Source: Thunnus maccoyii
Taxonomy: Eukaryota; Chordata; Actinopteri; Scombriformes; Scombridae
Direction of reading: 5' to 3'
Assembly: GCF_910596095.1 (NCBI RefSeq)
Contig: NC_056539.1
Span: 7,700,501 to 7,764,500, forward strand
Length of the DNA: 64,000 nucleotides
Of this stretch, positions 20,162 through 62,100 are shown one piece after another; position 1 is the stretch's first letter, and each line of letters opens with the position of its first letter. The translations under genes and the position numbers were made by a program. The notes beneath the pieces are model-generated. The model did not search any database and was not told the origin of the DNA. It worked only from the letters and a program-made list of their open reading frames with translations.

Positions 20162-20204
<43 letters not shown>

Positions 20205-23200
20205 TTTATTTACATTACAAACTGCATCACATTGGGCAGCAAATTAAAAAAATATTAATTAAATTATGAAAACATGACATTTGACACTAAAGAAAATAAC
20301 TAAATAAATACATAAAACAGGTTCAAAGAAAATAAAAACTCAAGTAAAATCAGGAAAGATTCTCTGATAAAAGTATGTTTCAAGAAGAGATCTGAGAGTT
20401 GTGCCTCTGATTTTCTTACATATAACAAGATTGATCTTGTTGTTATGTACACTCTTCTATACAGTATGTAATGTCTCTGTATAAACAAAAAAAGCTAAAT
20501 GAGACATGTATTATATAGTGATGCTGTTATGAGCATTTGAGTAAGATAATATCAGCAGTTTATATGATAGAATAGTTTAACTTTCAGCTATAGTTAAAAT
20601 GATTTAGTCACTTTGTTACACTCAGTCATATTTCATGATGAAGGAAGATCTCAGTTAAATAGTTTCAAACTACAAGTGAGACGAGTCAACCCTGTCAGGA
20701 GATACAGGGTTTAAATATTTTTCAACAGAACATGGAGTCAGTCTGACCTCCCCCTCTGCAGCAGCTCCCAGTGGGCCGGACCAGTGGTCATGTTGAAGGC
20801 TCCGGGGTAAACCAGCAGCTGACAGCCTGAGAACAAAAAGGACGACGTCATCAACTGTCCTACATGCCATTTAAAAACAGCCCAGCTGATACAAACAGTC
20901 ACTTCAGCTGCTTACCTTTCCTGCTGTAGAGCTGTGCGAGCTCTGCAAACCTCATATCGTAGCAAATCCCCACACCCACTTTACAGAACGCTGTAAGACA
21001 GAGAGAGAAAACAAGTCAACGTGATGCTCGTCCAGCCGCAGGGAAACAAAGCATGACTCAGGAAACGTCACTTACGTGTTTCAAACACTGACAGACTGTT
21101 GCCTGGGCTCAGCGTCTCCGACTCTTGGAAGCGGATTTTCCCGGGAACGTCGATGTCAAAGAGGTGAATCTTGAAGAAAGACAAACACATTGATGTTGGT
21201 ATAATGATTAACGTATATAAAATATTCAACAAAACTGGTTTCACTAATGAGGTGATGCGTACGTACCTTCCTGTGCTTCAGAATCAGCTCTCCATCAGGC
21301 CCGAACACTGTACAGCTGTTATACAACTTCCCACCGTCCTCCTCAGGGATGGATCCTGGTGAACAAGAAGTCACATGGTGAACTTCCCAACTGCACAAAA
21401 ACATATTAAGATTTTTTTGTGTTTTTTTAGTTCTTTGACATCACTTCCTCTGCTGTGCTCAGCCCCCCAAAACTGCTTCATTAGCACCAGGTGACTGTAA
21501 TCAGTAACAACCAAGCTGAAAAGAGTGTCAATCAGTCCAAGAAAAGCAAAAGATGTAATAAATTAGGTTCAAGTTATAAGAAAAGATATCTGAACAAATA
21601 AGATTCAACTCAGTGTATTCTGTGAGTTCTTCTTTGTTGTGCCAGCTCTCTTTAATTAGCTTCATTTACATGTATTATTGATTTCCCGCACTTCACAAAA
21701 CAATTCTCAACAACCCTCTGAGAACCCTTTATTAATTTTTAACAGTATTATGACGTGTCACAGCAGGAGAAGCAATTAACAACACTTAACGATGTCTGAA
21801 TGTATTTAAGGATTCTGCTGAGAGGCTTCAGTGGAACAGAGATCATTAATGATGTTTGTTACAGCTGCTTTTCCAGTAAACTGTCTGTGGTGAAAAAATG
21901 GGTTTCACACTACCAGAGCAAAGTTTGATTGATAAATGTTGTTAACACTGGTGGTTGTAGATGCTTCATCTTTCAGTTATCACACATGTACTCATTTCTG
22001 TGGTTCATTCATTTATTTAATTGCTATTAAAATACATACAATAAATGACATGGAAGGAAGAGTAGGCTTGTACCCTTGTTTTAAAGCTGTTACTACTAGT
22101 TAAAAAGTGAGAGTTTTTCCACTCACTGAAATCAAAACACATCATGTGGCTGCACTGAGTTGATCTATTAACTCTGCTGTTGGTGGAGAAACGTGTTAGC
22201 CTTTAACTCTGAGGCACAAACACCAAAACCTGATGTACAGGGTTGATATTCTAGACGGGCAGAGGATGGTCTTGACCTGCTCTATGTGAAAAGTGCCCTG
22301 AGATAACTTTGTGATGATTTGGCGCAATATAAATAAAACTGAAATTGAATTGAATTGAATACTGGTGTGATGTGACATGTTTCTACATTTGAACAGTTAT
22401 TAACAGAAAGAAGATAAATATGATCTAAAATTATACTTGAATGTCAAGTTCAAGTTGTTTCCTTCTCTCAAGTCTACTTCCAGTGATCAGCAGCTCACTA
22501 CAACACCTGACGTGTGTTACTCCTCCATTATAACTGGAGGAAACAACCTTATGTTTTCCCAAGATAATGAGCTAATTAACCTGTCACACAGGAAATATAA
22601 TACACCTTTAGTAGTATTAGAACTATTCAACACTCAAGTTAAGGAACAAAAGGTGAAACATCTGTAAAACACGGCCATAAAATAATACTGCTTATGAATA
22701 TATTCAGAAGACTTCCACCTTTCAATATATTGAGTAATCGATTAAAATGTCTATTTACAATGGAGAAAAATACATGGACCTCTTTATGCAGGTCACTACA
22801 GCCACAGAAGCCTCCTTACCTCCCACTAGATACACTTTATTCTCCTTTGCTGCCTCTGACAACACCTGGGTGGATTCTCCTGGGATCCTCTCAGCATACG
22901 TAGAGAAGAAGCCGGTTCCATACGGAGAATTGAAGCATTCCTGTGTTAGAGACAGATGAGAAAACATCAGTTTACAGCAGATGATGAGCTGTGACTTGAA
23001 TCTTGGACTCATCCACCCCTTAACCCCCCCCCCCCCCCCCCCCCCCCCCAGTGGTGGACAGTAACCCCACTCCACTACATTTCAGAGGGAAATATTGTAC
23101 TTTATTGTACTACAGCTCCACCAAATAGTGATTTTTCCCTCTAAACTTCTCACATGGTTTCGTTTCAATAAATGTTGAAATGATCCAAAGTTTCACCAAA

Positions 23201-23974
23201 AATCAAAGATTAGAGAAAAAGTCCAAACACTGAAAACAGATTTGTGTATCAGAACTTTGTTTTTTCTTCTTTTCTCTCCCATTAATCATCTCACAACCCC
23301 TCAGATTCATCTGGTGACCCTTTGGAGGGGCCTGACCCCTAGGTTGGGAACCACTGGACTGAACTAGCTAACCGTATGTAAAGTAGTTAAAACTAGCTCC
23401 ACCTCCAGCAGCTACAACAGTAACATGCTGCTCTAACACTGATGCTTCATTATTAATAATCTAATGATGTCATATATAATAATATATCAGTCAGAGGAAC
23501 CAAACCACTACTTTTACTACATCAAACTGATAATATTTATGTACTTTTACTGTGTTAGGATTTTTCATACAGGACTTTTACATGTAATGGAGTATTTTTA
23601 CACTGCAGTATTGGTACTTGTACTGAAGGAAAGTATCTGAATACTTCCTCACCGGCAGCAGCACCACTTTGCTGCCCTGTCCTGCCGCCTCTTGGACCAG
23701 CCTCCGGGCCCGGCTCAGGTTGTCCGCCTTGACGCTCGTCACCTGTAGCTGCACCACAGCCAGACGGAACTCTGCAGCAAACAGGAGACCCTCAGTGTAA
23801 GTTTGGTTGTAGCTACAACTTAAAAACTGTGCAGTGTCAACAGTAAGAGGAGACAGGCTCGGTACTACAGCTGATATTATTAAACTGTTCATGCACTCAG
23901 TTAGCTGCACCTTCAGTAAAATACATTATACACACAAGAAGCTCACAGAAGACAGCTTTGTACTTACTAGCCAT
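18548..23974 (-). CDS. nit2: Omega-amidase NIT2 (nitrilase family member 2)
   Basis: Hydrolyses alpha-ketoglutaramate and alpha-ketosuccinamate, the products of glutamine and asparagine transamination, to the keto acid and ammonia (known for the family). Ten coding exons in minus-strand order: 23974-23968 (only 7 nt, ATGGCTA), 23771-23653, 22940-22820, 21355-21267, 21169-21076, 20990-20916, 20826-20748, 19924-19826, 19045-18990, 18648-18548; 840 nt, 279 residues (human 276). The nitrilase catalytic triad is intact and falls at the residue numbers known for NIT2: Glu43 ([10 protein letters not shown]), Lys112 (KHRKIHLF) and Cys153 ([11 protein letters not shown]). The enzyme is cytosolic and mitochondrial in mammals. 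It is followed on the same strand by tbc1d23, as in the human 3q12 cluster. Several introns hold interspersed repeats, one touching the exon 2 donor. Confidence 0.96.
19179..19530 (+). repeat. Teleost interspersed repeat (AGTGGTAGAAAGTAAC family), copy 1
   Basis: Starts AGTGGTAGAAAGTAAC and continues with stacked AGTAC/GTACTT words and GAGGGAAATATTGTACTTTT, a text common across perch-like fish. It lies in nit2 intron 8. Related copies are at 23050-23645 and 63165-63530. Confidence 0.65.
20162..20201. repeat. (ATA)n microsatellite
   Basis: About 40 bp of ATA/AAT trinucleotide repeat in nit2 intron 7. Confidence 0.95.
22246..22360 (+). repeat. Retroposon tail ending in TGAAT repeats
   Basis: Text around GTGCCCTGAGATAACTTTGT and ATTTGGCGCAATATAAATAA, followed by (TTGAAT/TGAAT)n, is the recognisable 3' tail of a high-copy fish SINE/LINE. 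It lies in nit2 intron 3. Only the tail is clear. Confidence 0.6.
23024..23049. repeat. Poly(C) tract of 26 bases
   Basis: An uninterrupted run of 26 C at the edge of the repeat that begins at 23050, in nit2 intron 2. Read on the transcribed (minus) strand it is a 26-G run with quadruplex potential. The exact length may be affected by sequencing. Confidence 0.9.
23050..23645 (+). repeat. Teleost interspersed repeat (AGTGGTAGAAAGTAAC family), copy 2
   Basis: Starts AGTGGTGGACAGTAAC next to the poly(C) tract, shares GAGGGAAATATTGTACTTTA with copy 1, and ends GAAAGTATCTGAATACTTCC. The end lies within about 10 bp of the 5' splice site of nit2 exon 2 (exon end 23653, minus strand). A middle part containing CCTAGGTTGGGAACCACTGG may be a second, nested repeat. 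Confidence 0.6.
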
Positions 23975-26940: not shown

Positions 26941-36523
<9,583 letters not shown>

Positions 36524-39452: not shown

Positions 39453-41589
39453 TTACAGCGTCGGAGGTTTCAGCCCGTACTTCCTCGCCACTTCTGTCTG
39501 GGCGTATGCGGCATCGCATAACGAGTACAAATGGGCCATCTCCATCTCTGACTTGGCTAGGTTAATCGCCTTGTTGAACATTTCTATCGCCTTGTCCAGA
39601 TTGCCCCTGGAAGGAAAATGCTCGTGTTATTTGAAGCACTTTGAGAAAGACACAATATGAGGTTTGGGTCAAACTTTTAATCTCACCTTTGAACTTCGAT
39701 GGTTCCCATGGTTTCATAAGCAAAGTCACATTTGTTGTCAATCTCAATCGCCTTGCTGATGAGCTCTAGACCCAAATCAAGGTCCTGTTTCCACTGCAGC
39801 TGTAACAAACTGGACATATATTGAAGAATTACCGACTGATATCTAATTTACACTTATGAATCAGATCTTATTTTAACAATATGCATAACTGAAGGGGGAA
39901 AAAAAGCTTACCCCTTGTGGACATATGTGGTAGCATTGTCTGGTTCCAGTTCGATACACTTGTCATACATCTCATCTGCTTTTCCAAACTGCTGCTGATC
40001 AGTCAAAGCCTGAAAAATAAACAAAAACACTTGCGTTGTAAGGTCTGTTGAACATGTCAACAACATCTGAAGCTGACATTTTCTGTCTGAATTTTAATAA
40101 AATATTTTATAAATGCCATTTAAATAAGAAAAAGCAACCACTGATCACTGTTGGAATAGAAATTCACATTTTTGGTTATATACCTGAGCGTAGAGAGCGT
40201 AGCCTTCAGCACACTTTGGGAACCTTCTGATAACATCTTCAAAGCCGTCCATGGCGGTCTGTACTTGTGACGGGTTGTTTCCAGTATATGCTTGTCTATA
40301 CTGAAGTACATAGCAAAAACAAACTCACCAGCTAATCTCAGCAAATAGGATGAAAAGTTAACTCACTCATTAGATAGTGAAGTTAATGTCAGACAATCTC
40401 TCTTTTTAAAGTGTTTAGATGAAAACTTACAAGAGCAAAGCATTTCTGTGCCTGGGCCAGAGCCGAGTCAGGCCTGAGCAGGATGCACTCATCGAAGTCT
40501 CCCACGGCCTCGTCCACCTGGTCCAGCAGAATCTTCAGCTGAGAGGAAATACAGAGGACTTCGTCTTACACTACAGCATATACCAGGATCCATTCACAAA
40601 CTGGCACCTAATGAGCTATGTTAAAGAGACCAGTTCATCCAGACTCCTACCTGACCCCTGTGGTGATACACGTCAGGGTTGCGTGTATCGATGTCAGCTG
40701 CCATGTTGAAGTCTTGTGTCGAGAGCAGAGGCTGCTGCTGCTGCATGTACATGCTTCCACGCTTGATCAAAGCATTGGCTCGTAGCTGTGAAAAATTAGA
40801 CGACACAACAGAGAGAGATCCTGTGATGTTGTAGCCACCAGCTCATCTTTCAAAAGTCTTTATTTATATATAAACATCATAAGGTAAGCTGTGAAAAAAT
40901 GGCATGCATTAAAATAAGATTAAACCTGGAAAACATGTCCGTACCTTCACATTGGCATCATGCATGTTGATTACTCGATCCAGATCAGGTTGAGCAGCAG
41001 TAGCGTTGCCAATCAGCAGGTAGAATGTAGCACGCAGCAGCAGGGCCTCAGCAGTGTATCGTCCGCCTGACTCGATCTCCTTGGTGCATTCGCTGATGAT
41101 TTTGTCATAGTTCTCCTCCTCCATGTACTGCTTTGCCTTCAGGTAGCCAGAGCTAAGGACGTGAAAAAGACCAGATGAGAAAAACTATTAATCTACTAGG
41201 TAATAATTCACAGTTTTGCAAAAAATTATTTCACTTAATACACTTTAAACTGCAAGTAAACATTTGACCTCAGAAGATATCTTCAATGTGCCCCTCTGCA
41301 CTAAAACAGACTTCAATGTATTGTAATGCTGAAACAGATTAACAATGCACTGTTTAGTACTTGATTAATAGGCATATATTGTTGTGCAAACTCAAAATAT
41401 TAGAGGTTTCCATAAAATATCAATGACATGCACATTTTCTTTACTACACAAAAATGTGTTTGATTGTGACCCTCCAGGTTTACTTCTGGATCCACAGCTA
41501 GTACTACATATTTGTTTTGACTTTGTGAATCCCTTTACTTTTCAGTTTGTCAATATTTCTAGTTGTTCAACACCCTCTGCACAAGATAT

Positions 41590-41624
<35 letters not shown>

Positions 41625-44600
41625 TGTCCCAGCAGATGAATCATAATGATTTTAGTCATCCCCTGACATTTACTCTAAACAGTAGGGCAGTAATTCTCAG
41701 GCGTACATCAACATCTAAAGCCATGACATTTTCAGAATACATTCATGTTCTCCTGAGGATGCATCATTTGGATTTTATCTAGTGCAAACCTCAAGTTTTA
41801 ACTAGTAACATTTTGAAATTCTATATGGAAGATAGCGACACTCCCCCGAAAAAACGTTCTGCTTAGTTCCCATTAAGCACATTTACACCCACACTCCTGC
41901 ATCTCATCACTGTCACTGTCACTGATAGTGGAAAGGTCGTAGGATCATAAAAACCAAATGAGTTTCTTCCGTTGGAAGCATGAATATGTTCAGAGCTTTA
42001 ATGGCAACCTCCCCATTTCATTTAAATATTCTTGGAAATTATGTGACTGTTAAGTCAACACAGGGACAAAGATACCTGTAGAACATTTCCAGCATCTTGC
42101 TCTATGCCACCAGCTCGTCCGCAGTGTTGGACAAGTTAACTTGAAATTACTGATGACATATTACTCATTGTAAAAGTAATTACATGACTTTATTTCTCAG
42201 CAGCAGAAGTAATGCGTTTTATTACTCATTACTTTACGTTTTTAATCAGCTGTCAGCTCCAATCCTCCACACCCACATGTAATATGTATTGTATTTGTGT
42301 TTAAGAAGCAGGCAGGATACAATTTTGAAGAATTTACTGACCATCCAACAGCTAGTGTTAGCGTAGCCTCAGTGACTGCACAAAGCACTCCAGAAGTCCC
42401 GACCTCAGCTGCATGATTCATGGATTTAGTTCTCTGAACTGAACCAGCGCCAGGTGATTCCTGAACGCAGGCGTACCCGTGGCTAACGATAGCGAGCCAG
42501 CTAAGCTACGACCCAACTTTGGAATTACTGCGAGTTGCATTTGTCCTCCAGAGAGGTCTGCCAGCTGAACGCAGAGACCACATTGATATCAACCCTCCAT
42601 CAATCCAGTAAGACAGCGAGCACGTTGACCCCCAAGTGTAAAAGTAATGGAGCGTTACTGGGATTAGTAACTGTAATATAATTATTGAATTTCAAACCGT
42701 AATCCATTAAAAGTAATAATATTACACGGTGACTAAGTAATGCGTTACTGCCCAACACTGCTCCTCTGTCCATCCTGGTAAAACCTAAATGAACCAGTTA
42801 AGTTGATAATAAGCAAATGTTCTCTGACCTCTCAGTGACTTCAGCTGCCTCGCCCTCCTTGTCCTTGTCTTCATCTTTCTTCTCCCCCTTCTGCAGGGGC
42901 TGCGAGATGATGTCATCAGTGAATGAACTAAAGTAGGACTTGATGAACTGAGGAGAAGGCATCATGGGTTCACGGTTCTGCAGAGGGAGGGTTAAAAAAT
43001 ATATGTTTACTGTGACAATTCAGGGAAATGAAACTGAAACAAAATGTCTCTAGAAGTGTACAAATACCTTGTATTTCTCTTTGGCCTTCTCTTTTCCCAG
43101 CTGTTTCAGCACCTTGTCTGCTAGCAGCATGCTCTGTTGGTTCTGGAAGGCCTCGAGAATACACACCGCTGTGACATCTGGAGGATTAAAAGGAAACAAT
43201 AGCAAATCAACTTGTCTTTGTCACAACAACAGTTACACATTTTAAAAGACACATTTGTAAAAGGATAATTTTAAAAGAAAAGGGGTCTGGTCTCACCTTC
43301 CAAGCATTCCTTCTTGTTGTCTAGTTTTTCCAGAGCTTTAGCCCTCCTGAACAGAGCCTTGACATAGCGTGGATTAAGTTCCACAGCCTGAGAGCAGTCC
43401 TGCACCACTTCTGTCCATTTCAGCTGAAATTAAAGTTATAAACTTTGACATTTTCCAAAAATATCTGTATGAGAATTCAGTAGAGTCCCAGAGTGTGTCC
43501 ACTATCCAGAGAGGCTTACAAGTGCAGTGGAGATGCAGACCTGTATGTAGCAAACTCTTTCCTTTGTTGAAGTACGTTTTTTATTAACTAGGACACAGAT
43601 TTGCCTGAAAGGTAATAGTTCTCTATGAGTAAATGTCACTTCTGCTCATGCTTTATCTTTGTTAAAAGAGTTTATTTTTTCCCTGTGCATATTGATGTTG
43701 AGACATTTCATAAAGCTTACAGTCCAAACTAAGTCTGTACAAAAATGTCAGTGCAGCAGAACTGAAAAATACTGCAGACTGTTAAAGAGATCATTTCACC
43801 ACAATAAGATCAAGAGATCTATAGTGATCATGACATCTCAAGACCAACATATATGATGACAGTATCTGTAACCAACACAACCAGTTACGCCCGGCAGACT
43901 GCAGCCTAAATTGAAGGGAGTGGTTTACAAACCATTTCTTAAGTGACAAAACTAGTCTACATGATTAGCGTTGTCCAAACACATCAAACATTTAACTGCT
44001 GGCAGCTGGGATGGAATCTTCTTCACTGATTAATCACCTCAACATCACACTTTCAGCCAGAGAGCATATGTGAACAGAATGTAAGATTAATACAACACTC
44101 AGTTTCAGTGTTGATGTTTCACTTGGTGTGTTGCTACACATTGACCAAAGATCTAAAACCTCTGTTCCTCTGGTTTTAAGGTATAAGAAGAGGACAGTAA
44201 CATGCACTGAAGCTCTTTCATGCCTATTTTAAGTTCAAGGAAGAGTCAGGAGTACTGACTTGTATGACTTTCCTTCTACAAGCATCTCAACCCAGTGAAT
44301 ATCTCTGGAGACAAAGTGTACCATACTGCAACATGCAAGACACTCGCCAGGATCTTCTAAAAACAAACTACAATGACTGCATGTTATTGTACGTAATTTC
44401 TTCAAAAGAATGAATGAAGAATTGATGCCAGACAGAGGCAACAGTGTCATTGCAGCAAAAGGTTGACATAACAGTGAGAAATTCACTTTGTCTGGACACA
44501 CTTTCTCATTCAAGTTAATGGGACAGTGTGTTCAAACTTTTGACTGGTACTGTGCGTCACTCATAAGATGTGTTTCTGACACTGTTTCAGCTTTTTTTTT

Positions 44601-47082
44601 TTTTTTTTTACATTGTTGAATATCACAATAATCTCATTAAAATTTACAAGAAGATTGTACCAACCTGCTGTTCGTAGGCTGCTGCTCTGTTCTGGTAAAA
44701 CGTTGACAAATCAGTCTTTTGCTCTGTGGGGCACAGAGCAATGGCTTCTGTGTAGCACTGGATGGCGTTCTCATACTTTCCAGCCTTGAAGTACTTGTTG
44801 CCCTTGTTCTTTGCTGCTTGGGCCCGATCCAAAGGGCTCTAAACGAGACAGAGAAAAGATGGTGTTTATGGGTTGAATGGTGTCTTCTGCATCTCAGTAG
44901 ACTAGATCAAGGACTGAAGAGCCAAAGGGTTATTTAACATAATTAAATATCTCTCAGCAACCCATTAGAGCTGCAACTAGTCGACTGACAGAAAATAAAC
45001 TGGTAACTCCCTTTCATCGTCTTCACATAGGAAAGTGAATATCTAATGTTTAGACTGTGATAAGACAAAGCCAGACATTTGATGACATTGCATTGGGCTC
45101 AGGGAAATCGTGATGGTATTTTTCACAGTTTTCTGGTGTATTATTGGTGATCTAGAAAATAATTGTCAGATTAAAACAATCATAGAAGAGCCAAAATTGC
45201 AAAAGGACCATTTATAACAACTATGCCGACACCAACACTGATTCTAGGATAACAACTGTAATAGTAGGCTGCAAATGATGATTATTTTAATTATTGATTA
45301 ATCTGTCAGCCATTTTCTTACTTAATCGTTTGGTCAATAAAATGTCAGAAAAAAGTGAAAATTGCAGTTTGGCATTTTTTCAAGAGAAAACAACTTAATG
45401 ATTAATGGATTTCATCCTGTGGATACATTTTCTGACCACTGACGAATCGATTAATTGTGCATTAACTCAAAACCCTGCTTTCAGATTTCTATAAATAAAT
45501 AAGCTCAATGATGGATAAGAAAAGCACATTTCACTGACATTAGCAAACACTGCAGGAACAAAGAGACTTAAACCATTTGATGTTTGTGTTTGAAATGTGA
45601 AATGGTTTATAACGGTTGAATGTTTGTCTTAATCCACGTGCATTACTTCGCATTAATATCACACAATACCTTAAATGAATCCTGTCTGTGTCACGTCACA
45701 CATGAACAGAATCTGTTTATTAGCCAAGTATGCAGCACGCAAAGAATGTGTCTGACTAAAAATATAGCAAGATTAAAGTGATAATGATTATGTACTACTA
45801 CAATAAACAAAGTGGTGCTAAAATTAAATGACAAATTTTAAATCTATTTACAGAATGGGATAATAATAGTTTTGAAATGGAATATAAAACTTGAAATGAT
45901 ATATTGACTGTACACAGCTGTGTTATGGCCAAAGAAATTGTGACAAGAGCAAAAATTAAATGTGACATGTGCAATAAATAATTTAATTATGTAACAGTGG
46001 AGGTTGGATGCAATGTACAATGTAAAGTCCAGTTTGATGAAATATATGAAAGTGACCAGAGCAGGGATTGAAAGAGGGATGTGAGATGTAAAGTCCAGTT
46101 TGATATCAGTTCACCTATTTAACAGGGCAACAACTTCTGGAAATAATGACTTAACATTTTACCTTTATCACACTTATTACTCAATGACATCCTATTTATA
46201 GGATCGGTTTCATATTTGCGAGCTAACAATCTCATACTAATGATATTGTATTCTATAATTACACAAAGCTGCTTCATGTAACTTAGCTCATGGACGCCAT
46301 AATATCGATAGCATGACTGAATGAACGATCATGGGGGAAACATGAGTGAGGTGTCCATTACGCATGCATGTTACCACGAAATGAAAGCTATGACAGCCAG
46401 CAACAGCCTGTCACACTGTATAATGAAACCAACGCAGCCTGGTTCAAATGACATTTGCAAAACATAAAAATTACAAAGCTGTGCTTGTGGCTCCAAATAA
46501 AAAGCCTCGTGTCGTTTTGTTCCCACATGTTTTAACTCGTCAGCCGCACTTACATGTTCTGTAAAGTCAATGGTTGCTTTTAAAGGCGTGCAGGCATTTG
46601 CAACCAGGCTAAATTAACCTAGCCGGCATATTAACACGGGCTAATCCAGCGCCGCTGAGCCGGTTGCTAATGGCCTTGCTCTCCTGAAGGTAGCTGCCAC
46701 CGACGCTCGGTAACGTCAGGTGTCCTTGACTGTACTTTCACGGCAATGACGCATGTAGTAAGAAAGGTGTACGCACAGCTCAAAGGCATACACAGCTATC
46801 GTGATAATGGTGAATTAAACGCAGTCTCAGGGCATCAGTTACCATGTCCTCCTGTTCTCGGCTGGCCCGGGCTGCGCCGTCTTGGCCCTGCACCGGACTG
46901 GCGCTGCCTTCCGGTGTTTTCCGCTCCCCGCTCCCTTTCCCTCGCCTTTCCTTCGTCCGGCTGCGATTCCAGAGGTAAACCGCCCCGACCCCCAGCACTA
47001 TGGGAGTCCCGACCAACAGTGCCAGCTGCCAGCGGGGTAGTCCAGTCCCGGACTGCGGCTCGACTGGCTTTGAAGCAGCCAT
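39453..47082 (-). CDS. tomm70: Mitochondrial import receptor subunit TOM70
   Basis: An outer-membrane TPR receptor that accepts Hsp70/Hsp90-bound carrier preproteins and passes them to the TOM channel. Twelve exons, minus-strand order: 47082-46843, 44838-44665, 43423-43297, 43177-43068, 42977-42829, 41152-40945, 40785-40651, 40538-40431, 40300-40184, 40009-39912, 39809-39687, 39606-39453; 1743 nt, 580 residues (human 608). The N-terminal anchor is about residues 16-37 (RWQLALLVGTPIVLGVGAVY). A basic, low-complexity linker rich in Gly/Ser follows. The TPR clamp begins DRAQAAKNKGNKYFKAGKY (about 83), with the clamp arginines in ALFRRAKA (161-168). An acidic/lysine linker (KKDEDKDKEGEAAE) separates clamp and core TPRs. 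The C-terminus KYGLKPPTL matches human. The N-terminus is shorter than in mammals (fewer Gly/Ala repeats). Confidence 0.97.
41591..41621. repeat. Poly(A) run of 31 bases
   Basis: An uninterrupted A run in tomm70 intron 5 with no adjacent retrocopy recognised. Confidence 0.9.
42122..42760. mobile_element. hAT-like non-autonomous DNA transposon in tomm70 intron 5
   Basis: Left end CAGTGTTGGACAAGTTAACT, right end TTACTGCCCAACACTG: inverted termini CAGTGTTGG(G/A)CA. The flanking 8-mers CTCGTCCG and CTCCTCTG match at 6 of 8 bases, as expected for an aged hAT target-site duplication. It is 639 bp, with subterminal AGTAAT/ATTACT words and no transposase frame. Confidence 0.75.
44490..44563 (+). repeat. 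Fragment of fish repeat ending in a GTTCAAACTTTTGACTGGTA word
   Basis: CAAACTTTTGACTGGTACTG near 44535-44555 is a highly repeated terminal word in teleost genomes. Fragment only, in tomm70 intron 2; followed by a T run at about 44592-44609. Confidence 0.5.
44968..45410. repeat. Two fragments of the GCTGCAAC-ended repeat in tomm70 intron 1
   Basis: AGAGCTGCAACTAGTCGACT at 44968 begins one copy and GGCTGCAAATGATGATTATT at about 45267 begins another that breaks off near 45410. Both are diverged from the copy at 16249-16576. Confidence 0.55.
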
Positions 47083-50000
47083 GATCAACAACCGAGCAGT
47101 GGCTAACCAGCAGCGAGTACCTGCGTGCGTCAGACAGCGTGAGCAGGCGCCACTTCTTCTTCCCGTGTGCTGCGAGGTCACAGACACACCGAGGAATCAT
47201 GGGATACTGCGGGACTGTGTGTAGTTGTAGTACGTAGTGACATTTTGTAGTCCAATCATAATCTCAGAGAAACTGTGGAGTTTGAGCCTTTAGAAATAGT
47301 GGCAACAAACCATTTTAGTAGTTCTCCGGAATTGAACCAGTAGTCTGTTGTAGTCTCAGTTATAGTTTGCAGTGAAGGGCAGTGTAAAAAAAAGCCAAAT
47401 AAGCAAACACATTTGAATTTTGCTTCAGTATAATGCACCAGTACACCACCACCATCCACTACGACCTCAATAATAAATATAAAGTAGAATTATCATCATC
47501 AAGCTTCGTAAAAAATAGACTTTATGGCAGAGCTGTTGTATTGGACTGCATTAGACTGCACAGGTGTTCATTACAAAAGTGCTTGGTGAGTGTATATCAG
47601 TACTTTCAGGAAACATGACCCCCACCTGTCACTGTCACAATAACATTATCCACTCTGTGGCCTACTTTATCATGCATGTACTGGACTGAACAGTTTGTAC
47701 AGTATCTGAATCATTGTCATAGGGAAGACATGTTATAATGTTATACATAAGAGACAAATAGGCCTATGCTGGAACACTGTTTGCCACCAGATTTACCATT
47801 TGTCAGTAATTTGAATAAATACCATTTTCATGAGAGATGTGATCCAGAGACTATATGGACCAAGCACAATGTTGGCTGAAATTATAAGGAACTTAAAATC
47901 AGATATGAACATAGTGCTCTCATATAGCACCTATGATTTAACATGTCCAGGACACTGCAGCAGTTCCTTGCTTCACCTGGTCAAAACTCCAGCCTCGGTG
48001 AGAAAGGCACTGATGATATGCTTTCTACCCATCTAGTATTTCTACTTAATCCAAGGTACACTACACAGATAGATAAAGCCACATTACAACTGGGGTGAGT
48101 TTTATTTGTGATGTGGATAATGTAAAAATAAATAAATAAATAAAGTTTTACAACATTTTGGGACATTTTTAAACCATTAACGATTAAAATCTTACCAAAG
48201 TAATGTTTTCATTGTTTACAATCTTGAAAAAATGACTGCAGCCACCAGGCGGCAGTGTTGCTGATTCTCAACAGAAATCCATACTCTCACCTATTCCTCT
48301 ACAGAGATGACCACATCAATTAAAATGTTGCATGATTATCTCTGTATGTGCTTGTATGTTAAAAGAAATTAAAATACTTCTTGCTGTCATAAACCAAGAG
48401 GGCTACAGCATAGCGTATTTTGTTTCCCCAGTAAAGACAATTTTATTTACAAGTACATATTTTTCAGCTGTAACACTCATCAACATATGGATTTATCATA
48501 CGGGTTTGAGTGGGTGTTTCTGGGTTTGTATTTTTGCCAGGTTCTTCTCTGTACCCTTTCAGCGCTGAGTGCTTGTCTGTCTGGACGGTGCTGGAGCCTG
48601 ACTATCAAATTTCGCTCTAGGCCATCTTTCCTCAAACAGTGACCAGCATTGCCCAGTTTTCAAAGTCAACTGTAGCTGGTTAAAGGGAAGCACATGTGAT
48701 AAATAGACCTGTCCTTGCAGCAGCATAAACCTTTGTTAGAGCATCATTCCCTGGAGAGGTCGTGTACAGTTCAAGGACATACTGTACATTATGCTGTTGA
48801 TTAATTCTGTTCCTGAAGTTGTACCGGATTAAAATGAAACGTTCGATATTAGATTAAAAAATGTATTTATAATATATACCAAGTTGAAAATAAAATTAAA
48901 TTTTGTTTTTCCCAGCTGAGTAGCTCAAAACATGTTACTGGCCTAAAAATAATCAATTCTACACTAACACAGTAGCTTGATTTGAAAAGCCACAAAATCA
49001 ATTTTGCCACTAAACTACAACACGTGATGAGACACATAAGTGTGTTTTGCATGTGTGGTGTGTGTTAGCTTCTCCTCACTGACTGAGCATGTAGGTGAAA
49101 AGGGGCTATAGACAGAGGTTACAATAAGGATGTCTGATCTTCTGGCTATTCCTGACTCTGTGTGCCTGCTATTGTTGGCACAGCCTGGCTTAGTTTTTAG
49201 TCGCTGCCACTGGATGTTGGGTAACCAGTGACCAACCTGTTCGTCTGTACTTTGAAAATGTAAATGACACTGAATTATTCTAGTTAGACCATGTAATCTG
49301 ATTAATTTCAGATGTCCAGGCACGTAAAGTTTTATTTATGCAGTTGTTGATCTTGTTCTCTGGCAGACTAGTTTGAGTTCCAGAAAGTACTTTTAAGTAT
49401 AATCTGTATAATCACACACCAGCAGAAGAGACAGTTGGTTCAATCAGTCGATAGCAAACCTCTGAGTTGGATCACAGCCTCTTGTCTCCTCATTCACAGG
49501 CCTCATCCTCTAGTCTTCCAACTAGATTTGAAACAAAGAATTGTGTTGTTTACCTCTATTTGTTGGCACTTTTTTACATTTCAGACTAATTAGTTTATGT
49601 TAATTATCATGTACAACCACTGTAAAGAATTTTAAAATATCTCAAAAGATGTAAATTCAGCCAATCCCCCCAGAAAATATTTTCCAGTATTTGAAAAATA
49701 CATTTTTATATTCTAGTATCACATAGGCATATATAATGTGTTCTTCTTGTTTTTTTCCATTGTTTCTGGTATAATTTCTCTTCAGGTGTGACCTTAATTG
49801 AATCCCATCTCTGGAATAACAACAGATTACTGTAATCTTGTTCTCAGTCATGATCTGAGGTTACATGAGAAAGCAGCATGAATGTCTTAAAACAGTGTCT
49901 GTCTAGATTAGTCGCCTGCGTTGAGACTCGACTCTCTGAGATGATTAGCAGCATTTTAATCTTTTCAGTCTGTGAAGGTGTAAAGGAGGGTTTTGTGGTG

Positions 50001-51486
50001 GTACTTTACTTTGAGCCCCCCTATCTAGCATTTATGCACAGTATATAAACATTTATTAAATGGTTTATAACACACCATAATGTAGTCAACTACTATAACT
50101 CCTCCTGTGGGAACCTATAACTCTATACTGTATGTATGTACAGTATAGTAAAATACGGTTATAATAATATAAAATATGTCTTCATAGGAGAAATTATAAT
50201 TTTTGACAAAAACTGTACAAATTGTACATTAATAGACATTGAAAATGTCCTGCTTACAATTATATTATAATGTGTTAGAAACAATTTATTAACCCTTTAT
50301 CTACCGCTTGTAAATGCTAAATAGGGGTACATAAAGTAAGGTGTATATGTGATTTGGGTAACGATCAAGTTTGAACTTCAGCTCAAACCAGATACCTGAG
50401 GACACCACGATGGCTCTATGACATGTAACATATTTTATGATGGTAATAATATATTCTCTATTGAATTCATTCAAATCATATCATTTAATAAATATCTGTT
50501 TTTTCTCAGACAGATTTTCTCATCCCAAGGTGCTCTACACAATTTAATTCAAAATAGTAAATTCTCTTATATAATCTTATGTGTGATACAGCTGATGTCA
50601 TTTTATAAAGCATGAACTGACCACATATGTGCTGTAGAGAACTTCACCTCACTGTCCAGTACAAAATATGTGTTCATGAATATTTTGGTACCAATTCGTG
50701 CAAATGTTGCTTTTGTAGTTTCTGGATTTGTTCACTGCACAGGTGCATTTCTCTTACAAGAATTGTATCGCACAACTTTGATAAAAAAGTACCTCTGAAA
50801 ACAAAATCAACAAAAATCTCTGCCTCAGTCATATCCACTGTAATATGAAAAGATTTGCTCCCCTGTTGTCCTGTATAACACAAGCCTCAGGCTCACAGCT
50901 CACTGTGGTAGGCACAGTTGCCTGCACTCCATAGTTATTGACAGGTTTGATGTACTCAGCGAGTGGAAAGTATGGGGAAATTGGAGTTTCAGTTGTCTAC
51001 CCCCAGGCCCATGACTGTAATGGAAAGATTAAAAGCACTGGTCACATCACCCACCCAGTGCCAAAATACTAGCCGTTCCTCCCTGACTCCCGCCTCCCTG
51101 TTTATTCCCATCACCTCCATTTTTACTTTCTACCAGGGACGTTAAATAGATTAAAAGGGATTCACTTATTTAAAGACTTGAGCAAAAGCTCTGCTGTTTA
51201 TTTTGGTTCGTCCAAGAATAACACAACTGCAGCAACAGTGCTTGAGGCACCAGAGGGATCTAAATGAAGTAAGTTACCTTTGCCTTGTGGGACAGGGTAA
51301 TGTAGTAGAGCAGCCACACCAACGGCCAGTCAGTCAGAAGCTTAGTAGGTCAGCTCAGTACTGTCTTAACTGTCTGTGCCACTCAGCCGAGATCACACTT
51401 TCACTAGTTGTACTGAGACTTGTCGCACCGAGAGGCTCCTTATACAGGATAGGATCATGTCTCTCAGGCTCCTGCCTGCTATCATT
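47083..51486. other. Divergent region between tomm70 and lnp1
   Basis: The first 200 bp hold the tomm70 promoter, with a CCAAT word near 47253. The rest is AT-rich with no recognisable gene, a short (TAAA)n tract near 48128-48144 and a foldback element at 49999-50343. The lnp1 promoter and any 5' untranslated exon probably lie in 50.9-51.45 kb but cannot be placed. Confidence 0.5.
49999..50343. repeat. Foldback MITE with long inverted arms
   Basis: The left arm begins near 49999 with ACTTTACTTTGAGCCCCC and CTATCTAGCATTTATG. The right arm reverse-complemented reads CACCTTACTTTATGTACCCC then CTATTTAGCATTTAC. Similarity continues about 80 bp into AACACA..ATAATG. The spacer is short and non-coding. 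This is typical of an abundant fish MITE. Confidence 0.65.
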
Positions 51487-54400
51487 ATGGACAATGATGA
51501 AGACGATGATGGCAACTTCACAAAATGGATGAGTAGTTACTGGGGTCATGGAGCAGAATCTGGGCACTCCAGAGACAGAAAACGCAGTTTCAGAAGACCT
51601 GCAAAAACACAAGTCGATCGAAGAGGATCACTCCCAACTGTGGTAAGGACCAGCAGCGTTTAATGGATGCATGGATGTTGTTTATTATTTATTTATATCT
51701 TGTTTATTATTGTTCAATACATATTTGTTCTGACATATAAACAAAACATTTTTCCAGTTTGCCTTTTTTATCAAGCCATGTTTGACCACAGCATAAACAA
51801 ACGGATATTTTTAAACTGGTTGAAGATAAATTAACAAATACTTCTGCATCAAAAATCGTACATGTCTGTGTGGAAGATTTGTAAGTTATGTCCGTTATAC
51901 TTAAAGACTAAGGCTGAAAAAGAAAGGAAGTATGGTCTCATTTATATTTTGGCAGACAATAAGAGTAGACTAATGCATAATGCAACAATACTGTATATAC
52001 TCTGTAGACATGGAAAACTCACACTTGGGTATGAGCACTATGCAGGCGAGGTTGAGGAGTTTAGTAATAGGATGTCCTGACCTGTAATTCACCTTGATTC
52101 ACCAAATTCACATCAATAATGCCTGCTGGTGCACGCACGCATACACACACACACACACAGTCATGCGCAGACAGATATCTATATTTATTAATCTGATTAT
52201 ATAATATAACTTTCTTTACTGTTGTTTTGCTACATGCAAAATTCCAACATAAAAACTTACAAAGAACAGAATTAATAACGCTATGACGTTGGTGTCCAGA
52301 TATTTACTGTCTTCAGTGTTCTGTATTACTTTATGTCAGTCAGTGTGGTCAAAATTATACAGATACTCTGCCACATGTGACTCAGTTCACTGTCACACTG
52401 TCAGTGATAAAAAACTTTTCAAATGAATGCAGACCTGGTTGTAAGTTTGGTCTTTGATATTCATATTCCTGTTATGAATGAGTAATGATGTAAGTTTGGG
52501 AGAAATTACTTTCAAGCTGTAACAAATATACTCTCTTATTCATTTATTGAAATACCTGCTGTTTTTTTAGTCACGGACTGTTGCATGCCAGAGCTCTTAC
52601 ATAGATAGAGGACATGTTGTCAATGGAACAGTGTGCTACTCTGTTCATTGCCATTGTCAAGGGAATTGACTTTTCATTTTCCTCTCTGCACAGCAAGGTC
52701 AGAGGTCACTGCCAGCTACACAGCAGCACACTTGTGGCTCATACAGTAGCTATTTAGGATAATCAAGGACACTTTAGCAAGGTGGATTTTTACCAGAATA
52801 TAGACTTAACACCCTGTAAGTTTAAGATGGACAAGGGACACGCCAAAAATAATGTGCAAGTGTGAGTTTAATTCGTGTTTTTTTCTGGCAGTGAAATCTT
52901 TTTTTTTTAAATTAATTTTACTAACAAAAGCAACATCTGCATAATGAAGATTGTTGATGCCTACAGTAGGTGTTACTCCATGTGATGGCTTTCATTCCAT
53001 GGATTAAGTCCATCTAATAATATGAGGTTTTAAGTATAAGATTAGATTTTATCTATAACGTAAGTGTTGATGACATTTTCTTTGGTTCTATTCCTCAAAG
53101 AAAATCCTCTGAGTGAACTGGCACTGGTTATGTGAAACAAAAACAGCATGTTCTCATATAGACTGGCCTGTGGGGGTTGTCAAACAAAGCACTCATGGCC
53201 TAAATAATGCAGCTTAATTGAAAATTTGGGTTTTCGTCAGTGTGAAAGCCTGCACTTCTGCCAACACAGATCAACTTCTGCGTGTGAGCCAGAGGAGAAA
53301 CAAGCCACACGACCCAACTATTAATCCACAGAAAGATGGATACCAGTCTTCTCAGACCCTGGTTATCAATTCAAACGTGTACAGCAAAGCATAATTTTTC
53401 AGGTTTTTATTTTTATTTTGGAATTGTGCCTTAACACCAAATGATTTGGTTTCATATACAGAAACTGTATCTCTTCATTAAGATAACACAGGTGAACGTT
53501 GATCCCGTACACAATCTCAATTAAGTCTTGCTTTACGGACACTGCAGTCAGGGGGATTGTGTCTTGCTGTGAAGCTCTGAATTGTTGTTTTAATCATCAA
53601 GAGCGCTGAAGTTTACCAATGAGTGATAAGTAAGTGGACCATCAGAATATTCACCTCACACCAGCAAAAATCTACACATTGTGTTTGCTACATTTTGATT
53701 TCACCCTCAATATACCTGTCTTGCAACACGTACTCCAATAAGTGTAATAATCAGATTATTACTGTTGTGTAAATCATCAGTGGTGTCCTTAGTCAAGAGG
53801 CATTACTACTATAATTAGGCGGGTGCTTTGCTAACATGTTACTTAAGAATATTAGTAGTGATTAACCCCATTCACAGACAAAGCTCAGTGGAGTTGTCTG
53901 CATTGGGTTTATTGTTCTCACAGCAGCTCTTTACTCTGCTATAATTGGAAACGTAATTATTACTAGTTATGCTTGAATGATTGTGGACAAGTTTTAACAT
54001 TGTGTAATGACGCTTATCGGCCCTCTCTGTGGTCCACAGTCACAATTAGATGCCATGAAGTTGAACCGGCTCCACGCAGCGACGATGGCGCCCACCCCCA
54101 GCCACCTTAAAACAAGAGAGGAGAAAGGGGAAGTCAGGCCCCACCAGAGAGCTCGTCGTGCCTCTTCAGACGACAACAGCCGTCCCAAGTCAGCCATCCC
54201 GGAGAACCGCATTACCACAATCCCAGAGCTCACAGAGTCCTTTGAGAAGAGACTTTACCTCCGTGATAAGAGGGCAGCGTCTCTGGTAAGCAGGAGTATT
54301 ATAAAGTAAATTACAGTTCAAAGAGTTTTTACAGTTTTCTTTATTAGCCTCCGTTTAACTGCAGGGTCACTGGGTTTTGGTATGCTCTGTCTTTCACTAA

Positions 54401-56691
54401 TACTGTTGGATATTATGAAGTTCTTAAAGATTCAAGGGGTCTTAGAAGGCATTAAAAGATGCATTACCTTAATGGACTAACAGGATCACGGACAGGTTTG
54501 AACTGCATTGCATGTCTCATAAGGTCATATTAGCCATTGATACTATAAGGGCTTCTAGAATAAACTATTCACCTTTTATGCAACAGCTAGATTACCTCTA
54601 TGTTCTGTGTTTTAGTATTAACATGTCATATTTTGTAGTTATAAGTTTTGACTTTAATTTTCCAGTCTTGTAATCTTGGTTTTAGCTTTCTATGATTAGA
54701 ACATTTGTGTTTGCTGTCATTAAGCAACTTTCTCTTCACCACCATCTCAGCACAAGGGTTAGATTAATTGTCATCCACATATATATAGTATATTTACTGT
54801 ATTAACTGTGACTTACAGTAAATTTATCATTTGCTAATGCATCATTCAGATCACTTGGAAGATTCCTGGAGAGGAATTTGTGGTTAAATGTGTATTGCAT
54901 CCAATACACATTTGATTATGTGTTTGATCTTTGTCATGAAATTCAAACCTTTCGCCTTTGTACAGTAAACACTTCATTAAAGTGAGCTGTAGTAAAAAAG
55001 CAAGGCATTAATATTGTAAATATATGACACAAATACTAAAAAAAACTTTGTTACTTTGGTATAACAATTTATTTTGATCAGGATCTGGGCAGTAAATAAA
55101 AAGGCTTAATTTTTTCTTTGGCAGAATGATGATGACAAGCTGTGCCTGATCTGTCATGAGGACATGCGTAAGAATGGAGGTACAGTTCAAGAGCTGCACT
55201 GTACACACCGCTTCCACAAAGAGGTAAAACATCTTTAATAAATCTGATCTATTGCATGTCTCCTCTGAACCGTATTTACACTGCCCCGGTCTTCCCACTG
55301 CAAAGTCTTCATTTGTTCACTCTCAGCATGTGAGATATCATCCACACTGCATGACGGCAGCTCATTCCTAGACATGCATGATGTGAAGTGGAATGAAAAC
55401 AATCTGCCCCCGAACCTCTCTCTTGGCGGAAGCACTCTTAACAGCTTTCCCCATGGTGTGAGGACTTGACACTTACTGCTTATGATATCTCCGTTTGGTG
55501 GGTGTTGAAGGCGGCTCGGAGGTTAGGGCAGTGTCGGCCCCGCAGCAGCAGTGAAGTGGCAGATGGTCAGGTGCCGAGATTCTCAGGTGAGAGGAGGAGG
55601 TCGGTAGATGGACCTATCTCTGTGGAAAAGGAGCAGCACACTCCCCGTCGTCAACTTTCCCTGCGGAGACATCGCTGATATCATTCCATGGAAGGAGGTG
55701 ATTCATTATGGGAAGAGAAGATGGAGGGTTTGCAGCCATGGGCCAAATATGGTGTGAAGTGTTAAAGTCTCAGGGCCTTGAATGTGCCTGACGTGATTCT
55801 GTAAAACTGTTCTGTGGCCCTGTCGCTGTGTCAGCTTTGGTTTCATTACTGCTGTTTCTCTTCAGTGTCAAAAGGAGAATTAATAAATCATAATTATAAA
55901 AAAAACATGTCTGATTCTAGGAAAAAACAAAGTATAAGTTATTTGTTTAAGGAATTACCCGTACTTGAAGTTTCCTGCTTGAATTAGATTGTATTTACCT
56001 GCTGCCATATTGAAATATATGCTACTTTAACAAAGGCAAAGAATATAAAGAATAAGCATAATATTTTCATTGTCATTTCAACAAAACTACATTATAGTTT
56101 TAAAGTGTGAAAAGTAAAGCTGTTGTGATTTGGTTGCATATTTCTCTTAACTGTTTCATGTCACTTTATACACTATAGATTATTGATTGCTTGGAGGTTG
56201 CTTTAATGAAGTTCAAATTATGTGTGTTTTTGTGTTCAATCATTACTTGCGTGTTTGCATTTTGTGTTGTGACACACAAGACAAAAAGTCAATAAATAAC
56301 CAAAGACATAAACTTTAAATTCTATATACTTTTTGCTTTTTAACCAGGGGAATCTGCTTGAACTCTTTTATAACTGGGCTTCTTCAACAAAACAGTTGGT
56401 GTAAAATACAATAAAACATGTGACAGCAGTGTCCTCACAGCTCGGGGTCGGGGTCAGTGCTGCCGCTGTTGTGTATATGCTTATTGCAGGTCACCATGTT
56501 GGAAAATCGATATCTGCAGAAGTCATAAACATTCAGCCCGGGTGGAAAACACATGCAATAATCTCTTTTAAATTGTGTTTCAGTGCATGGAGCAGTGGCT
56601 GTGGAAGAAACAGACGTGTCCCACATGCCGTGTCCACGTGTCCATGCCGAAGCCCCTCTACTGGTCCTCGTCCCGCATCAAAGTCCCATAA
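51487..56691 (+). CDS. lnp1: Leukemia NUP98 fusion partner 1 homologue with C-terminal RING-H2 domain
   Basis: Four exons: 51487-51642, 54040-54285, 55125-55223, 56584-56691; 609 nt, 202 residues; every exon is a multiple of three in phase 0. The N-terminus (MDNDEDDDGNFTKWMSSYWG) and residues near 115-134 (ELTESFEKRLYLRDKRAASL) match human LNP1 (DDDDDDVSFAKWMSSFWGH; KFSESFERQLCFRTKRSASL). Exons 3 and 4 encode a full RING-H2: Cys141, Cys144, Cys160, His162, His165, Cys168, Cys179, Cys182, with WL after Cys168 and CPTC at the end. This predicts an E3 ubiquitin ligase. The RING and tail resemble DZIP3/TTC3 RINGs. Human LNP1 (about 178 residues) has no RING as I recall it. The start was chosen by alignment; an in-frame ATG at 51457 would add ten residues. 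A poly(A) signal is at 57217-57222. Position beside tomm70 supports orthology. Confidence 0.85.
52143..52160. repeat. Short (CA)n tract
   Basis: About nine CA units in lnp1 intron 1. Confidence 0.85.
55270..55700. other. GC-rich block in lnp1 intron 3
   Basis: This part of the intron is clearly richer in G and C than its AT-rich surroundings and contains an open frame of 70 codons (55466-55678) rich in Arg and Ser. No homology was recognised. It may be an enhancer, an alternative exon or chance. Confidence 0.3.
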
Positions 56692-57216
56692 CAGTCCTGC
56701 ACCTCCGCTTGCCACGCCTGCATGACTTCCCGACCCCCTTCACACCTCAGTCTTTCTGCATGAACACCTGCTGGTCCTCAGACAATATGTTGTTTGAGGA
56801 AGCACTTGAAACACTCAATGAGGTGACTTTAATGTAGTTCATCCTCTGTCATAGGAGGGTTCTGGATGCTGTATGAGAGTTAAGGGACCCCAACAGAAGA
56901 GATTTGGTGCTGTTTCTTTTTATAGTATCAGAATGTTCTGTGTACATTATTAGCCCTATTATGAGAGATTTTGTCTTTTTATACAGATTTCATCAGTGTC
57001 AAAAATATTTGAGACATGCTACACGGTGCATTGAACCTGGAATTATATGAACCAAATTTCCTCAAGATTACTTTAATTTTTCTAATTATTGTCTCTTAAA
57101 ATTATTTTTTGCACTTCTCATTCACCTTAAAGCAGATCTAGAGCTCATCAACCACATAATTGGTGCCACATTAATTGACAGCTCGTGGTTACAGAGGGTT
57201 CCCTATAGTTCTGAAA

Positions 57217-57222
57217 AATAAA
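57217..57222 (+). terminator. Probable poly(A) signal of lnp1
   Basis: AATAAA about 525 bp after the stop codon. Confidence 0.5.
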
Positions 57223-58668
57223 CATCCTGAAAACAAGACCTCTCCTTTGTCCTCTCCTTTTGAACAAGGTTACAGACCAACCTCAGTGTAAACAGTATTT
57301 GCATATTCAAACTAATCGGAGCCAGTATTCTTCTTGTACTTTAGACTCTGCCCATGTTAATCACAGAACTAAATGTTAATGTTAATAAAACTTCATGACG
57401 AGGAGCTTTGTTAATCTGAAAGTAAGCACTATTAGTCATCTTTACTCTTAGGTTATGAACTCTCCCCCCTCAAACAGTGAGCCTGTCTGTCATTCCTCAT
57501 TTTCCATCTGCTTCATGTCCCTGCCTTATCTCTGCTATTGTTTTGCATGTGAAATATTTTGCATGTTACGTCTTGTCGACTGTCAACACTACAATGTTGA
57601 GCTTTCAAGCATCTCTGTAACGTTGTGTTTCTTGCACTGCCAAATCAGAGTTTACAGCTTGTGCTAAATGTCCAACAAAATCAGACTGCCTGTATATAAA
57701 TGTATCTTACAAATACAAAAATAGTCATCTTTCCATGTATAGCATGTTAATCACTATATTATTATTATTTCATGTGACTCATACTATATATTTAGCTTAA
57801 TATACTGTAAGTCAGTCACTAACCACTAAATCCTGGTAATCTGCTGTGATCCTTTTGGGTTTATATCCAACCAAAATGAATTTATCTGCTGTACAGATGA
57901 AGTCTGTTAAGATCTGTATAATTATGAGTGGGAAATGACATAGAACTAAACTCTATTTACTGTCCTTACTGTGAGTGGCACATTTGGTTTTTCAATTGTC
58001 TTTCATATGTGAAATATTGAGCATTTTGTTGCTGTCCTACATTTTGAAACAATTTTTACTCATAACCAAAAATACAGGATTGTTGCGTAAAGCCTGCATC
58101 ACACTGCTGAGGCTTTGAAGGCTGAAGTGACACTACGACCAACACACAACCAGCCCGAAGCAGCGCCAGCCTTCAGCTGCCATGTTCACTGTTTTCCTGA
58201 GAGAAGCTGGTGACACACAGCACTGTTATTCTGTGACTGCTGTGGTCGTGCACTCCTCAATAAAAATCCCACTGATGTGACACTCCCTTGCTAAATATGG
58301 TTTGGTTTGCCTCCAACAAACACCCACTTTTCTGTGTCTTAATATATAACTTACAGTAGTCAAGTTATGATGCTTCCATTGTTCAGATTTTAAGACTGCA
58401 GTCCATCAAAGGGAACAATTAAGTATTCAACAGCATTCAAATCCCATAATAGCAATACCTTTCTCAAGGCAGACATCTTTGACCTAGTAGGAAAAACACA
58501 GGCATAACCAGTAATATTAATGATGGCTCTGTTCCATGTAAGTGTTTCAGTAAGTTAGCATGCTAAATACCAGAGAGCTGCTGACACATCAAAACAGACT
58601 GTAGTCGTTATCAGTGTTATTTGTTACACCTCCGTTTAAATATGTCAGTGTGGCTATTGTGTTGTTAA

Positions 58669-59186
58669 CCTCTTAACATCTCCCCATTTCTTTGGAATTT
58701 TCCTATTTGGCATGCGAAATGGAAAAATACCAGAGGAACTGTGAGGCCAAAATGCATATATTAGACTTCATTTGAAAGGTAACATCTTCTAGTTTCTGGA
58801 AATGTGTTTGTTTAGCATGTGGCTAAAACACAACCAAAACTACATCAGTTCAAATATGACAAAAAAGTGTATTTGGTCCTTGTCTATAATGAGTTATATT
58901 TGAATAACAATAACTAGGACATGCTTTATGCCAGAACTATGCAAATCACCATGTGCCTTCCACATCTTGTCAACCACACCTGTATAAAATTCAAAACCTC
59001 TAGACCTAACATTATGGGAGCTAGGGAGTTTTTAGTTTGTGTTGTCACTGGTGTCCCTGAACCTCTCCAAACGTCTCCAGGTGGCCAAATTGTGTCAGTT
59101 CCTTTAAATTTAACATTACTGCGTGATGCTGAGCTGCTTACAACTGGTTTAAGTGGGCTGCCAGCGACCCAGTGGACGTTAAGAGG
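58669..59186. mobile_element. piggyBac-like MITE flanked by TTAA
   Basis: TTAA at 58665-58668 and 59187-59190 flank termini CCTCTTAACATC and, reverse-complemented, CCTCTTAACGTC (11 of 12 identical). A TTAA target duplication with short terminal inverted repeats is the signature of piggyBac-type transposition. 518 bp, no transposase. The small frame inside (58921-59190) is not a gene. Confidence 0.7.
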
Positions 59187-61989: not shown

Positions 61990-62100
61990 CTCCTGAGATT
62001 GACGTGGACTTCAGCCAATTACAGCACGAACCAATGACGCCAGCTCACCTCAGTCATCCAATGGCTTCATTTTTAAGGAAACTAAAAGCCTAAACTGTTT
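61990..62100 (+). promoter_or_regulatory. CCAAT-box promoter at the right edge
   Basis: Three CCAAT words (62015-62019, 62031-62035, 62058-62062) lie within 48 bp, followed by an AT-rich TTTTTAAGG near 62070. Upstream, 61850-61990 is GC-rich. Spacing suits a transcription start near 62.1 kb on the plus strand. Confidence 0.5.

Follow-up and report, generated by a model that had tools for sequence, protein, structure and literature searches.

Human LNP1, the function of which is not known, was found fused to NUP98 in leukaemia. The sequence that we take to be this protein (LOC348801, 178 residues) ends in a charged tail of 49 residues, whereas the protein considered here, a member of the same family (PF15419 in Pfam), ends in a RING-H2 domain. 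It is encoded by the gene lnp1 at positions 51487-56691 (forward strand) of a 64,000-nucleotide stretch, C7:7700501-7764500, of the 782-Mb genome of the fish Thunnus maccoyii; the whole stretch is referred to as the window. We propose, with a rough probability of 0.75 and judging from sequence, that fish LNP1 is a small RING-H2 E3 ubiquitin ligase, which would use its RING for the ubiquitin-conjugating enzyme (E2) and its LNP1 half for the target.

The RING has two sets of described relatives. RING-H2 domains of synoviolin/HRD1-type and RNF111/RNF165-type ligases give the best matches among solved structures, at E 4.4e-10 for synoviolin and at E 6.2e-10 and weaker for RNF165; the likeness is confined to the RING and a few flanking residues, and at the place of the lnp1 RING intron these domains have either no intron or one of a differing phase. 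The proteins of the TTC3/DZIP3 type have in common with fish LNP1 a RING-H2 at the C terminus and a phase-0 intron within it, and their RING is the nearest to that of the C7 protein outside the lnp1 pair described below; in contrast to them, fish LNP1 is 202 residues long and has no match to the TTC3_DZIP3 domain.

The lnp1 gene and its RING-H2 domain

The gene model consists of four exons with GT-AG introns, all in phase 0, and a frame of 202 amino acids; the length of every exon is divisible by three, and AG and GT are found at the expected borders (Table 1). A second in-frame ATG at 51457, upstream of 51487, would lengthen the protein by 10 residues, and either of the two may be the start codon.

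The Pfam profile LNP1 spans residues 5-163 of the product (E 1.3e-42, 146.7 bits against a curated cut-off of 27), and zf-RING_2 spans residues 140-183 (E 2.4e-11). Since both matches lie within one spliced protein, chance can be excluded as the source of this build. All eight zinc ligands are present in the C3H2C3 order with the spacing C-x2-C-x15-C-x-H-x2-H-x2-C-x10-C-x2-C. An earlier note on this DNA, made from the letters alone, had named the protein a RING-H2 protein with exactly this spacing and had assigned exons 1 and 2 to LNP1; both statements are borne out, the latter also by 45 identical residues among the 125 that align with the presumed human protein. The alignable part of the two proteins ends at the junction of fish exons 2 and 3. 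The C7 RING further contains the loop isoleucine (CLIC), tryptophan four residues after the sixth ligand (CMEQW), proline after the seventh and the linchpin arginine after the eighth (CPTCR), which we take to be the features contacting E2. Among solved structures, 43 distinct sequences match the protein at E <= 0.001, all of them through the RING or its border, and none of the 43 is a structure of LNP1.

In the proposed mechanism, the C-terminal RING, of the TTC3/DZIP3 type, would bind the charged E2, and the choice of substrate or partner would fall to the N-terminal LNP1 half, which is probably disordered; the conserved blocks F-x-K-W-M-S-S-Y-W-G-H and S-F-E-K-R-L...K-R-A-A-S-L would form the substrate side. 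We infer transcription as modelled, E2 binding, catalysis and substrate choice from the sequence.

The second copy on C24

A genome search with the 68-residue RING part of C7 LNP1 gave 89 matches at E <= 1. The best of them after lnp1 itself lies on C24 (58.7 bits, the match running through the second RING half up to the C-terminal residue), and the first half of the same RING is sixth (35.8 bits). These matches belong to a second LNP1-RING gene at C24:1185983-1191492 (minus strand), which has four exons, all borders in phase 0 and the RING, as in C7. Its exon 1 encodes a long acidic stretch followed by IFSTWIQQY...DRRASLPCP, exon 2 carries MQLSRLHSSTRAP...IPTIPEAMAPERRGLFRRRNVMSM, and exons 3 and 4 encode the RING and the C terminus RVKVP, the C7 counterpart of which is RIKVP. 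Conservation within the pair is highest in the RING (41 of 68 residues identical, 26 standard deviations (SD) above shuffled sequences; 23 of 35 in exon 4), and the N-terminal halves align with 38 of 124 identical residues, 12.6 SD above shuffles. The N-terminal half of the C24 protein scores 129.5 against C7 and 36.5 against the presumed human LNP1. With Pfam LNP1 the C24 protein reaches 22.0-22.7 bits, below the cut-off of 27, so that its kinship to lnp1 is drawn from the exon structure and the alignment to the C7 gene and not from the Pfam score. In the genome search with this profile the cut-off was passed by the two C7 exons only; the four other matches listed are weak and do not include the C24 copy. 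The C24 gene, being under the cut-off, is perhaps unnamed in the annotation. A Brachyury-class T-box gene is found about 15 kb from it.

One could suppose that two genes stand in the C7 locus, exons 1 and 2 being lnp1 and exons 3 and 4 another short RING gene with its first exon in intron 2; introns 2 and 3, of 839 and 1360 bases, leave room for this. We consider it highly improbable. All four exons recur on C24 with order, strand and phases unchanged, and the Pfam LNP1 profile crosses the junction of exons 2 and 3 without a break in register. Moreover, exon 3 has no usable start codon: its reading frame has a stop at 55107, 18 bases upstream of the exon, and the sole in-frame ATG is codon 14, past the first two ligands, so exons 3 and 4 alone cannot make a whole RING and an upstream exon is needed. 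The presence of a diverged copy with the identical four exons, phases and RING makes it very probable that exons 1-2 and 3-4 are one gene; we infer the joining of exon 2 to exon 3 from the gene structure and this copy. The earlier note had proposed that transcripts assigning the two exon pairs to separate genes would refute it, and the C24 copy answers against such a separation, although indirectly.

The copies also bear on whether the RING acts as a ligase. Both keep the eight ligands, the loop isoleucine, the tryptophan after the sixth ligand and the proline after the seventh. The linchpin arginine of C7 is replaced by histidine in C24, which counts against the proposed function: the ligase activity of the C24 copy may be weak, as judged from this residue. 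It is conceivable, if unlikely, that the RING serves structure or dimerisation, has no ligase activity and makes LNP1 an adaptor; the histidine agrees with this, and certain RING proteins are indeed inactive alone. Such a role is harder to reconcile with the four presumed E2-contact features kept in C7 and with the fact that the two proteins are most alike in the RING. Returning to the ligase, the tail PxPxYWxSxRxKVP, which follows the RING in the C7 and C24 proteins alike, may contribute to the holding of E2-ubiquitin or of a dimer, by analogy with RNF4 and MDM2, where tails assist the RING function.

The age of the C24 copy is a more involved matter. In the N-terminal halves the synonymous divergence (dS) is saturated, with different codons at 30 of the 42 identical residues, and blastn detects similarity in exons 3 and 4 only, in two stretches (79% over 111 bases and 75% over 115 bases). 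In the RING exons the nonsynonymous divergence is 0.27 and dS is 0.69-0.75, with another codon at 11 of the 41 identical residues. This low value counts against a great age of the copy: in all of 58 comparison windows, which match the RING exons in length and resemble them in identity and come from the FILIP1-family pairs C24/C11 and C16/C17, dS is higher (at least 1.5, or saturated), and the codon-change fractions are 0.42-0.71. Taken alone, the low RING-exon dS would mean a younger duplication or a constraint on codons. Five other, undated RING pairs in the genome gave dS of 0.30, 0.32, 0.74 and 0.82 and one saturated value, which makes a weak control. Considering the saturated N-terminal half and the low dS in other RING pairs, we set the low value aside; the C24 copy looks old, its RING codons probably constrained or homogenised.

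A dating of this copy to the early vertebrate (2R) duplication, suggested by a FILIP1-type gene on C24, was turned round by the neighbours. The C24 gene pairs with that of C11 (49% identity versus 41-44% to the others); a tmem30c-like gene adjoins the C11 gene, and tmem30a-like genes adjoin the FILIP1-type genes on C16 and C17. From this pairing and the TMEM30A-like neighbours, C24 probably carries filip1l, and C16 and C17 carry filip1; FILIP1L is a human 3q12 gene. The teleost genome duplication may thus be as likely an origin of the C24 copy as 2R, or likelier. The greater closeness of its N-terminal half to C7 than to human LNP1 points the same way. What the two copies show is only that the LNP1-RING joining predates their duplication.

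Source of the RING and history of the gene

According to the earlier note, the RING is most like those of DZIP3 and TTC3. For C7 this agrees with blastp, in which the C24 RING (101 bits) is followed by C13 RINGs of the TTC3/DZIP3 type (56 and 53); a synoviolin-like RING reaches 49 bits and the remaining ones 48 or less. The C24 RING is slightly nearer to the synoviolin-like one (50 versus 48 bits), and the tree gives no placement, 9 of its 11 inner branches being open; both comparisons included 14 rows, two of the C13 RINGs among them. The intron is more telling. A phase-0 intron after HKE, directly before the sixth ligand, is found in both lnp1 copies and in all three C13 RINGs of the TTC3/DZIP3 type, and in none of the 21 other RING loci readable across that place (17 of 18 fetched, one being unreadable, and 4 more, these being the loci fetched and not all of the 150 and 89 genome matches listed). 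In the synoviolin-like gene the RING intron falls inside the codon just before this position, in phase 2. The identical intron makes the link to TTC3/DZIP3 stronger than it is by sequence alone, and the lnp1 RING is probably of this stock.

The C13 genes themselves form a tandem (C13:9887473-9956407, minus strand) with three near-identical RING exon pairs. The TTC3_DZIP3 domain (PF19179) has six matches in the genome, in two places, both on C13 and on the same strand, each some 14-18 kb upstream of one of the RINGs, so that two of the three have a match; as there are only two such places, one of the copies may be partial. In C7 LNP1 the domain gave no match at E <= 10, a level at which very weak matches mostly do not survive the filters of HMMER; since it is not matched, fish LNP1 is not a member of the TTC3/DZIP3 family. 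DZIP3 has been reported to act as an H2A ligase (PMC4645096). Nothing indicates that LNP1 shares this target.

According to the earlier note, the human protein lacks the RING. For the presumed human sequence this stands: it has no RING match at E 0.1, and its score of 262.6 bits with Pfam LNP1 speaks for its correctness. As far as the portions of the literature retrieved by our searches on LNP1 extend, they name no domain in the human protein and contain no publication on a RING in LNP1.

The Pfam profile offers indirect evidence on other species. The C7 N-terminal half with the true start of exon 3 scores 147.5 bits and reaches profile position 166 of 167. The score is 144.6, 144.4 or 145.5 bits if the first ligand, the second ligand or the third to fifth (C3, H4, H5) are changed, 137.8 with the C13 start, 138.1 with the synoviolin-like start and 136.4 with no tail; three shuffles gave 135.7, 137.9 and 141.0, a hand-made scramble 139.7 and the reversal 138.0. 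With the presumed human N-terminal half in front, the gain is 12 bits for the fish exon-3 start and 53 bits for the human tail. Considering that the true start outscores the altered, foreign and scrambled ones, the seed of the profile, mostly of the mammalian type, probably contains some RING-bearing LNP1, and the LNP1-RING build is probably in databases already. Scans of a viral contig collection (8 stretches pattern-matched) and of a bacterial and archaeal one (74 stretches) confirmed no relative and are not informative on other fishes.

As to the history, we lean towards the RING exons having joined the LNP1 exons early in vertebrates, with mammals later swapping in an unrelated charged tail and keeping the substrate-side half; in our judgement a mammalian loss is favoured over a gain in fishes. 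The fuller proposition, that LNP1 was at first, in early vertebrates, a small RING E3 of the TTC3/DZIP3 type, that mammals swapped the catalytic half and that human LNP1 is a ligase remnant, strikes us as an even bet. Two results do not help our reading: the presumed human tail aligns with the C7 and C24 RINGs only 0.4 and 1.4 SD above shuffles (equalled by 97 and 31 of 300 shuffles, respectively), which bears on the mammalian loss, and with the Pfam profile the start of C24 exon 3 reaches 140.7 bits and does not outscore the best shuffle. The tail was not found in positions 51001-64000 of the window and 6 kb beyond it, where the best match, on the minus strand of the flank, had E 0.073. That the tail is a decayed RING exon was rejected, the alignment being at the level of shuffles and the tail not being found near fish lnp1.

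A capture in ray-finned fishes is a tentative alternative, which we rate lower: RING exons of the TTC3/DZIP3 type would have entered lnp1 downstream of exon 2, prior to the duplication in fishes, and the human protein would be the ancestral form with no RING. All lnp1 introns being in phase 0, exons 3 and 4 fit after exon 2 with the frame unchanged, and the intron that splits the RING is shared with the C13 genes; besides, the filip1l-type gene on C24 allows that the C24 copy dates from the teleost duplication only and is silent on the older history. The human tail, on the other side, is short and charged and has no known domain, and a 3' exon swap seems easier than the gain of a working RING.

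If the early joining and the mammalian swap are true, human LNP1, as a NUP98 fusion partner, would be a ligase remnant with the substrate-binding half only. With loss or with gain, lnp1 would be a clear example of 3' exon exchange that removes or supplies the catalytic half of an E3. The intact RING in the fish orthologue suggests what the LNP1 family does; the conserved N-terminal blocks may be the substrate or partner sites of the ligase, an idea open to tests first in zebrafish and later in the human fusion. We regard the fish RING as a good lead on an orphan protein, one that can be tested quickly, and not as a new kind of system.

Gene neighbourhood and orthology

The gene order in the window and 6 kb beyond it is nit2-tbc1d23-tomm70-lnp1-TMEM45, the last being a DUF716 gene (E 1.3e-15) in the 6 kb past the window, identified as TMEM45 by eye. 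Human 3q12 presumably holds TBC1D23, NIT2, TOMM70, LNP1 and TMEM45A, and all four neighbours of LNP1 are found around the fish gene; the earlier note had relied on tomm70 adjoining lnp1 as in human, which is confirmed by the TOM70 match (Table 1). The sequence match together with nit2, tbc1d23, tomm70 and TMEM45 identifies the C7 gene as the orthologue of human LNP1.

Table 1. Positions of lnp1 and of its neighbours in the window
Feature	Positions	Strand	Description
lnp1 coding exon 1	51487..51642	+	52 residues; block FTKWMSSYWGH; donor GTAAGG, phase 0; Pfam LNP1
lnp1 coding exon 2	54040..54285	+	82 residues; block SFEKRLYLRDKRAASL; acceptor CAG, donor GTAAGC, phase 0; Pfam LNP1
lnp1 exon 3	55125..55223	+	first half of RING-H2: C1, C2, C3, H4, H5; zf-RING_2
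lnp1 exon 4	56584..56691, stop included	+	second half of RING-H2: C6, C7, C8; tail PxPxYWxSxRxKVP common to the C24 copy
Candidate polyadenylation signal	57217..57222	+	first AATAAA 3' of the lnp1 stop; consensus only
tomm70, partial exons	40624..47196	-	open reading frame 40912-41184 matches TOM70 chains, best E 1.4e-35; other pieces by eye
nit2, partial exons	21159..23925	-	piece of open reading frame 23581-23925 matches nitrilase homolog 2, E 1.6e-9; other pieces by eye
tbc1d23 exon	31961..32203	-	open reading frame matches TBC1 domain family member 23, E 1e-31

The nit2-tbc1d23 pair (about 19000-34000 of the window, minus strand) is inverted as a unit relative to the order and strands of human 3q12, and one inversion explains the difference. 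Close to this block, at 10408-12400 (minus strand), there is a GTP-binding gene (MMR_HSR1, E 6.7e-7) resembling gtpbp6 by eye, a gene that is pseudoautosomal in human. Two tandem sets of frames at 1182-2390 and 7989-9048 (plus strand) appear by eye to be of the PLCXD type (phosphatidylinositol phospholipase X); one piece was scanned and gave no Pfam match at 0.01. An immunoglobulin-domain gene at 14317-15525 (plus strand; V-set, E 7e-4, under the cut-off) is perhaps B7-like, of the HHLA2 type.

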